From Acidobacteriaceae bacterium (lineage in GTDB: Bacteria > Acidobacteriota > Terriglobia > Terriglobales > Acidobacteriaceae), in the NCBI GenBank assembly GCA_027307045.1, contig DAHUXR010000001.1, positions 56,706 to 120,705 on the forward strand: a DNA stretch of 64,000 nucleotides, given 5' to 3'. Each line of letters begins with the position of its first letter. Within the stretch, counting starts at the first letter, position 1. Positions 38,883-41,546 of this stretch are shown here, in pieces. The position numbers were made by a program, and so were the translations under genes. Under the pieces are notes generated by a model, which ran no database searches, was not told the origin of the DNA, and worked only from the letters and a program-made list of their open reading frames with translations.

Positions 38883-40136
38883 CTAGCGTAGCGGCATGCT
38901 GGCGCCCTCAAATACTTTTGTTACCGTACTGCGGCCGACGCCATAAATGATGAAGCTTTTATCGTCGAAGCCATATTCACGGAAGAGCAGCTCGGCCAGG
39001 CCGTCGCCATCGACATCGACTGCGTCGATTAGCTCCAGCCGCGGGGCCACGTCGAGCCGAGAAGAATCAGTCACGCTGGAGGCAAGCTTCTGCGGCATGC
39101 CTTCAAAGTCCACGCGGGCAATTACCGTTACGTAACGCGAGACAAATTTTCCCGGCGTGCCTTTACCGCCCTGCGCCAGGTAGCTGCCGGGAATTTCCGC
39201 GCTGAAAACGATGACGGCATCATTGCTGAGGTCGAGATCAAAAGAGCGCATCACCACATTCTGAAGAGAATTGGTGTTCAGCTGGGCGTTTTCCCGTGGA
39301 AGCTGCGCGAGCGCAAGTTTGCGCATCTTGGCTTCCATCTGTTGCTCCTCACCGGGCTTCCATTTGAAAGCAAAAGAGCGGATGTCCGCTGGTTCGTTAT
39401 CGGAGACGGCCACAAATGTCTTGGTGCCGGAGGGGACCACAGGCAGCTTGGTGCGCGGAACGGGCAATCCCGCTGCTGGGGCTTGGGCAGACGGAGTAGG
39501 CGAAGGTTGCGGCGTTGATTCTGGCTCCGGGTGGATGGGAGAGCGCCGCCGGAGGACGGGCCGGTCAGCATCGTCCGGCGCGCCAGCCGATGAATCGCTT
39601 GAAGGTGCACTTGGAGATGAGGGCGCACTTGAAGAAGAAGTGCTGGTTGTGGAGTCAGTGCCCGGCGCGGGCGTGCTGGCCGGCGTGGGTGACGGGGCGG
39701 CATCGCCGCGATGAATAATCGGCCGGTCGTCACCTGTGGTTACAGGAGCAGTCGCCTGCGCTTTCCTGGGTTCTTCCGCTACCTGCCATTTGGCCAGCGC
39801 GGTCCAGACCTTATTGTTGGTGCTGTTCAGGATAGTGGCGTAGCCAACGGGAATGCCATCTTTCTGCGCTTCATAGACAATGCCGTTATCCAGCGCCATG
39901 GGCTGCGGCGCGGCTTTATAGATACTGGCATCATGGAAGCTTCCTTCGTCAAGAATGGCGACGGGAAAAACGTGCGTGGCAACAATGCCGGCGGAGTCTG
40001 TAGTGATCTCAACCACGGCGGTGGCCCGCAGCTTGTGCGCCTTACGACGCTGGGCAAACGCGGTGGTGACGGCCGCGGCACATACCAGCACGAGCACCGC
40101 GCTGGCCAGGAACCTGCTTCTGCTATATAAATTCAT
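38883..40136 (-). CDS. Secreted hypothetical protein with Pro/Ser/Thr-rich linker
   Basis: Signal peptide from MNLYSRSRFLASAVLVLVCAAAVTTAFA; low-complexity centre (PSPTPASTPAPGTDSTTSTSSSSAPSSPSAPSS). Confidence 0.75.
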   Translation of the reverse strand: MNLYSRSRFLASAVLVLVCAAAVTTAFAQRRKAHKLRATAVVEITTDSAGIVATHVFPVAILDEGSFHDASIYKAAPQPMALDNGIVYEAQKDGIPVGYATILNSTNNKVWTALAKWQVAEEPRKAQATAPVTTGDDRPIIHRGDAAPSPTPASTPAPGTDSTTSTSSSSAPSSPSAPSSDSSAGAPDDADRPVLRRRSPIHPEPESTPQPSPTPSAQAPAAGLPVPRTKLPVVPSGTKTFVAVSDNEPADIRSFAFKWKPGEEQQMEAKMRKLALAQLPRENAQLNTNSLQNVVMRSFDLDLSNDAVIVFSAEIPGSYLAQGGKGTPGKFVSRYVTVIARVDFEGMPQKLASSVTDSSRLDVAPRLELIDAVDVDGDGLAELLFREYGFDDKSFIIYGVGRSTVTKVFEGASMPLR

Positions 40137-40160
40137 TGATCTTATAAACACGGAAAACCT

Positions 40161-40616
40161 ATGGAAGTTAATGATAAAGCCCCGGAGTTCTCTCTTGCCA
40201 ATGAAGAAGGCAAGCCAACCGCATTGAAAGATTATCGTGGAAAGAACGTGGTGCTGTTCTTTTATCCGAAAGCCAACACGCCCGGTTGAACGATTGAGGC
40301 GTGCGGGTTCCGCGACGCATACAAGCAGATTCAGAAGACGGGAGCGGTGGTGCTGGGGATTTCAGCCGATAAGCCCTCTGCCCAGAAGAAATTCAAGGAA
40401 AAATACGACCTGCCTTATTCCCTGCTGGCCGATGAGGACAAGGCCGTCTGCAACAAGTACGGCGTGATGAAGGAAAAAAGCATGTACGGCAAGAAGTACA
40501 TGGGAATTGAGCGGACGACGTTTGTGATCAACCCGGAAGGCAGGATTTCAGCCGTGCTGACCGGCCTGAAGCCAGATGAGCATGCGGCAGCAGCCATGGC
40601 GGCGCTGAAGAATTAA
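40161..40616 (+). CDS. bcp: Thioredoxin-dependent peroxiredoxin (Bcp/PrxQ type), putative selenoprotein with in-frame TGA (Sec43)
   Basis: MEVNDKAPEFSLANEEGKPTALKDYRGKNVVLFFYPKANTPG[TGA 40287-40289]TIEACGFRDAYKQIQKTGAVVLGISADKPSAQKKFKEKYDLPYSLLADEDKAVCNKYGVMKEKSMYGKKYMGIERTTFVINPEGRISAVLTGLKPDEHAAAAMAALKN*. Confidence 0.9.
40299..40318 (+). promoter_or_regulatory. Candidate bacterial SECIS hairpin 3' of the in-frame TGA
   Basis: GCGT-GCGG-[GTT]-CCGC-(G bulge)-ACGC; loop begins with G, 17 nt between TGA and loop. Confidence 0.6.
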
Positions 40617-40727: not shown

Positions 40728-41546
40728 TCATACATCGAGGCCTGGAAGGTTTGGACCCTTTTTCTTAGCTTTCTTTTGTGCTGTGATCAACTTCTTAATG
40801 GGCTCTTCAACCGGTAGATCTTCTGGCATGGTTCCACCGATGCGTCCAATTGCATCTCGTACCTGCGCCCCGACTGCACGGTGTGCGTTTATGGCTGGCA
40901 GTTCTCCCTGAATGCGTTCACGTTCCAATTTCTGCTGTGTTTGCGTAATACGAAATTCATTCGCTGCCAATTCGGCATGCCCAGCACGATCAAGCAGATC
41001 TTCTGAGTGAGCGATCCGTTTTCGCTGTTTTAGTTCTCGCAATCCCATGCCGTATAGACCACGATAGCCTGCGTCCGTAAAGAGTCCGAACCGCTTGACC
41101 CCTGCGTTGCGAGCGGTGCCATTTAGAACATTGTTACCCCGGCGCACACGATCCCGCAGTGCTATGCGCTTTGATTGATCCTGAACTTCCTGCCTTCGAG
41201 TTTGAGCGGCGAAATAAGATTGTGACGTTGAAATTTCGGGTTTGCTGGAGTCCCCATTCATCGCAATCAGGTAACAGGCATAGCGTGTTAAGTAACAATC
41301 TGCCCTAGCAAGCTTTGCACCCTTACCAGCAGTTATCATCTTCGTAGTATCAAGAAAGTGATAAGTAACTCTGAAGCCTGCATTTGCACACGCCATTTTT
41401 GATTTCTCAATGACACCCTCGAAGTTTTCCCACCTGTCGTACCCAAGTATCGGCTGAATGTCTCGCGCCATCCAATAATCCTCACCGTTTGGGGCCATAC
41501 GTTTCAATTGCTCAAGTGCTTTAATCACAGAATCAATCGAGTCCAT
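40728..41546 (-). CDS. dinD: DNA damage-inducible protein D (DinD)-like
   Basis: GEDYWMARDIQPILGYDRWENFEGVIEKSKMACANAG...ARADCYLTRYACYLIAMNGDSSKPEIS. Confidence 0.85.
   Translation of the reverse strand: MDSIDSVIKALEQLKRMAPNGEDYWMARDIQPILGYDRWENFEGVIEKSKMACANAGFRVTYHFLDTTKMITAGKGAKLARADCYLTRYACYLIAMNGDSSKPEISTSQSYFAAQTRRQEVQDQSKRIALRDRVRRGNNVLNGTARNAGVKRFGLFTDAGYRGLYGMGLRELKQRKRIAHSEDLLDRAGHAELAANEFRITQTQQKLERERIQGELPAINAHRAVGAQVRDAIGRIGGTMPEDLPVEEPIKKLITAQKKAKKKGPNLPGLDV

Follow-up and report, generated by a model that had tools for sequence, protein, structure and literature searches.

A single reading frame in the genome of an Acidobacteriaceae bacterium raises the question whether its internal TGA codon ends a broken gene or encodes selenocysteine (Sec) in a working peroxidase. 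The frame lies on the forward strand of the stretch of 64,000 nucleotides that was analysed, referred to here as the window, to which all positions refer. An initial annotation had proposed that the TGA replaces the peroxidatic Cys of an otherwise intact Bcp-type peroxiredoxin and is recoded as Sec. The features on which the analysis is based are as follows.

40161..40616, + strand: gene of a very probable Sec-containing Bcp/PrxQ peroxiredoxin, 151 aa with U43 (translation, family models, dN/dS)
40287..40289, + strand: UGA codon, very probably read as selenocysteine; U43, peroxidatic, PKANTPGU with the motif TxxU (TGA in 58/58 aligned genes)
40299..40318, + strand: predicted bacterial SECIS hairpin, GCGU GCGG [GUU] CCGC g ACGC (synonymous constraint, folding, model R1)
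40302..40304, + strand: codon of C48, putative resolving Cys (kept in the window gene, absent in 20/59 Sec genes)

Gene, protein family and active site

Translation of 40161–40616 yields 151 residues with one TGA at codon 43 and no other internal stop before the terminal TAA, in agreement with the intact frame that had been claimed. Standard ORF calling recovers only a 3' fragment starting from GTG 40347, so the protein is indeed missed by default annotation. When Cys is written for Sec, the protein passes the NCBIfam model NF006960 (thioredoxin-dependent thiol peroxidase Bcp) with 162.3 bits against a cut-off of 140, and matches Pfam AhpC-TSA with 147 bits. In an alignment to solved Bcp/PrxQ chains U43 falls on the peroxidatic Cys, as had been proposed. 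The peroxiredoxin active site P-x3-T-x2-C/U and the conserved Arg are present (P36, T40, U43 and R118). The gene thus has a UGA in frame where its Cys homologues have a redox-active Cys, one of the criteria used for bacterial selenoproteins.

Stretches of the window devoid of long ORFs were also scanned for reading frames interrupted once or twice by TGA, and candidates were judged by eye. Only the frame at 40161–40616 was taken for a protein whose TGA occupies a plausible redox position. The upstream ORF (38883–40151) is divergent and gave no Pfam match. The downstream neighbour (40728–41546, − strand) is convergent and encodes a Bro-N domain protein (PF02498). Given this arrangement, the peroxiredoxin gene appears to stand alone.

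Conservation of the TGA codon

One listed Bcp match per genome was evaluated for 298 genomes of the order. Among the matches listed, 53 genomes (own genome included) carry the gene with TGA, which is a lower bound (at least 53), and the TGA proteins of the other genomes are 57–93% identical to the query. In the comparison with homologues that had been suggested, TGA recurs in many relatives and Cys forms exist as well. All seven genomes of the genus carry TGA in their Bcp gene. The active-site pattern could be read in 52 of the 53 TGA genes, and in all of these the catalytic codon is TGA; the remaining one (L158), which the strict pattern misses, shows NTPGUTVETSEF on reading by eye. An aligned set of 58 acidobacterial Sec genes, including the window gene and six records from a separate genome collection, has TGA at the same codon throughout (58/58). 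Addition of a more distant Sec gene (L088) brings the number to 59. Elsewhere in the order and phylum, further families have TGA forms too (L180, L181, L182, L186 and L187). L180 and L189 likewise miss the strict pattern, with U at the site visible by eye. Seven distant TGA or model-R1 loci (L184, L185 and L190–L194) were left uncounted, as the active-site motif was not found in the search.

Past the UGA codon, dN/dS ranged from 0.03 to 0.18 in seven of eight comparisons with relatives; the eighth (L028) gave no value due to saturated synonymous sites. The sequence beyond the UGA is under purifying selection. This bears on the possibility that a nonsense mutation has killed an ordinary Cys Bcp. 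A single base change turns TGC or TGT into TGA, and a gene broken up by standard ORF calling is what a pseudogene would look like. Nevertheless, we regard such decay as extremely unlikely, given a TGA kept at codon 43 across dozens of species, the low dN/dS where calculable and a frame that is intact to its end. In addition, the own genome holds no close Cys copy that could take over, the next homologue being only 36% identical to the window protein.

An error of sequencing or assembly at base 40289 would be conceivable for an assembly fragmented into 356 contigs. However, numerous independent genomes, produced by several projects, have the identical TGA. With so many related species sharing it at this codon, a base-call error is excluded even without inspection of reads, and the probability left to this explanation is vanishingly small.

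Selenocysteine machinery

The assembly of the own genome is estimated to be 93.7% complete with 2.3% contamination. The initial annotation had named selA, selB, selD and tRNA-Sec as the genes to look for, and all four are present. The tRNA-Sec scored 73.9 bits and is called tRNA-SeC (tca) by ARAGORN, while selA scored 541.6 bits and selB 367 bits, the latter counted with its neighbour in the frame. The selD gene (364.8 bits) is itself a TGA gene, with the in-frame TGA in AAGUASK. At this locus (L018, G000:C69:269-1195) a hairpin follows the TGA codon.

All four machinery genes are located on contigs other than that of the window. Binning could in principle have gone wrong here, but the six other sampled genomes of the genus speak against this, as each has both selA and a TGA Bcp. 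Among the matches listed for the order, selA above the cut-off was found in 52/53 TGA genomes compared to 83/245 of the others (Fisher p = 6e-20). The one TGA genome in which selA was not found (G145) is an assembly of 260 contigs.

Two further loci of the own genome give a protein when read through TGA. The first (L174, G000:C43:7339-7737), with one TGA in its frame, would encode a ResA-like protein with WASWUGC, resembling the WAxxUGC kind of selenoprotein in NCBIfam. The second (L173, G000:C16:7158-7535) is peroxiredoxin-like, with TGGU at the catalytic position. A third locus (L176), in which a homologue gave a TGA hint, was dropped for want of a recognisable reading frame.

Predicted SECIS hairpin

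Bacterial SECIS elements are described in the bSECISearch literature as hairpins just after the UGA, with a G in the apical loop roughly 16–37 nt from the UGA. The hairpin predicted at 40299–40318 has a GUU apical loop (40307–40309) at a distance of 17 nt from the UGA, a bulged G at 40314 and constrained synonymous sites.

At codon +6, 53 of the 58 Sec genes use GGG. By comparison, GGG makes up 109/661 (16%) of the Gly codons in the remainder of these genes (p = 4.5e-32) and 2/11 Gly codons at this site in Cys genes (p = 1.7e-6), p values that ignore kinship among sequences. Codons +4, +7, +9 and +10 are likewise skewed between Sec and Cys genes. The mean folding energy after the UGA is −10.8 kcal/mol in Sec genes and −6.7 kcal/mol in Cys genes (p = 5e-8, again ignoring kinship). 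Compared with synonymous randomisations, the mean z score is −1.27 for Sec genes, −0.32 for Cys genes and −0.01 to 0.28 for control stretches. The synonymous sites after the UGA are thus held almost fixed in a hairpin in TGA genes, as a bacterial SECIS would require, whereas Cys genes show no such constraint.

Model R1, which was built on the hairpin, matches the own genome once, at the peroxiredoxin gene. For the window sequence taken alone, the folding energy does not stand out from that of dinucleotide shuffles (z −0.64), fixed-register covariation across relatives was not significant, RNAalifold on a short alignment returned a weak alternative structure instead of the hairpin, and an Rfam scan of the window yielded no matches. 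The stem is nearly invariant and the pairing register differs between relatives. With covariation not significant and the RNAalifold result weak, the assignment as SECIS is therefore based on the constrained synonymous sites, on folding relative to codon randomisation and on the distance from the UGA.

A coupled change was observed within the predicted stem. TCC (Ser) at +5 and CGT at +8 occur in exactly the same eight rows of the aligned acidobacterial set, and the tree forces at least four changes of this trait. In the drawn structure, the combination would move the stem bulge from G28 to U27. In L181 and L182, which belong to another family, TCC is paired with CGG, so the partner at +8 differs there. 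A clade formed by L046, L134, L141, L152 and L153 carries Sec Bcp genes with another post-UGA sequence (e.g. GCC TGC GGC TTC CGC GAT CAA) and probably has a different SECIS.

These observations bear on a third explanation, namely that the UGA is decoded by near-cognate read-through or as Trp, Cys or Arg. Bacteria generally show some leakiness at UGA. However, the site is that of the catalytic Cys, whose functional replacement is Sec, TGA Bcp genes co-occur with selA, and the hairpin is constrained in TGA genes and not in Cys genes. We consider decoding by anything other than Sec to be very unlikely.

Proposed function

Taken together, we conclude with high confidence that the window gene encodes a Bcp/PrxQ-type thiol peroxidase with Sec as peroxidatic residue, its UGA being read via SelB and the hairpin. 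The recoding put forward in the initial annotation is well supported by the Sec machinery, the recurrence of TGA and the constrained SECIS-like hairpin. During translation, SelB with Sec-tRNA(Sec) would bind the predicted hairpin at 40299–40318, and Sec would be inserted at the UGA in place of termination. P36, T40 and R118 would prepare the selenolate of U43 for the reduction of hydroperoxides, as the corresponding residues do in other peroxiredoxins. The resulting selenenic acid could be resolved by C48, forming a selenenylsulfide that thioredoxin would reduce, or directly by an external thiol.

Resolving Cys and exchange of Sec and Cys

A resolving Cys five residues after the peroxidatic position had been noted as kept. 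This holds for the window gene (C48), whereas many Sec relatives dispense with the residue. Cys at +5 is present in 84/86 collected Cys Bcp/PrxQ relatives, and its absence from 20/59 Sec genes (12 Arg, 8 Ser) compared to 2/86 Cys genes corresponds to p = 1.8e-7, phylogeny being ignored. Within the acidobacterial set, it is absent from 20/58 Sec and 1/20 Cys genes (p = 0.009, phylogeny likewise ignored). The trait needs eight changes on the tree, at least five of which are forced. Sec forms lacking the resolving Cys would work by a one-Sec mechanism.

The presence of Sec itself changes 10 times on the tree, with at least seven changes forced by supported branches; paralogy, transfer or in-place change may account for these. 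SECIS-like codons are retained in the Cys genes L170 and L172, which sit among Sec genes on the tree; these two have probably turned from Sec to Cys recently and still carry a relic SECIS. The distant acidobacterial Sec Bcp L088 groups with Cys forms of Bryobacterales, and a separate origin of Sec is possible in this case.

Comparison with known peroxiredoxins

Sec-containing peroxiredoxins with TxxU are an established bacterial selenoprotein family, COG1225 (PMC1088965, PMC1794560, PMC5029168, PMC9312934, PMC13188914), and Sec-Prx (COG1225/Bcp, TxxU) has been in catalogues since 2005. The same sources give 43 Sec-Prx genes for the Sargasso Sea set (PMC1088965) and 91 genes from 78 organisms by 2016 (PMC5029168), and PMC9312934 files the family as COG1225. 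The window gene shares the family, the TxxU motif and Sec at the peroxidatic position with these proteins. Acidobacteriota members are not named in the available survey text, in which four selenoproteins of three unnamed families are given for Acidobacteria (PMC1794560). In the open literature, judged by title or beginning of the abstract, no paper was found on Bcp with selenocysteine or on selenoproteins of Acidobacteria.

The experimental support for Sec peroxiredoxins cited by the reviews is PrxU of Eubacterium acidaminophilum (Soehling 2001; PMC13188914, PMC9312934). Membership in PrxU was rejected, as the window protein passes the Bcp model but scores 50.5 bits with the NCBIfam model NF040737 (233 positions), for which the cut-off is 270. 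The window protein apparently belongs to a different peroxiredoxin subfamily, and the biochemical support for PrxU is therefore not automatically transferable; the Bcp-type Sec peroxiredoxin may lack biochemical proof of its own. With Cys Bcp/PrxQ proteins (e.g. PDB 5enu and 3gkk) it shares the sequence family and the P-x3-T-x2-C active site, but differs in having Sec for Cys and a hairpin after the codon that is constrained at synonymous sites.

The enzyme type is thus already known, and the informative part is its wide spread and the repeated switching between selenium and sulphur in a bacterial order. We give about even chances to the broader reading that the Sec Bcp genes of Acidobacteriota form a natural experiment in Sec/Cys exchange, with several switches, a resolving Cys repeatedly dropped to leave one-Sec peroxidases, a relic SECIS in some Cys forms and a SECIS that limits protein substitutions (TCC at +5 with CGT at +8). 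Standard ORF calling truncates the window gene and probably many of its relatives, so that a peroxidase goes unnoticed in these genomes. With a set of closely related Sec and Cys forms, some having the resolving Cys and some lacking it, the advantage that Sec gives a peroxiredoxin can be tested directly. The same set bears on why Sec is lost and regained, and on the SECIS needs of SelB outside model bacteria.
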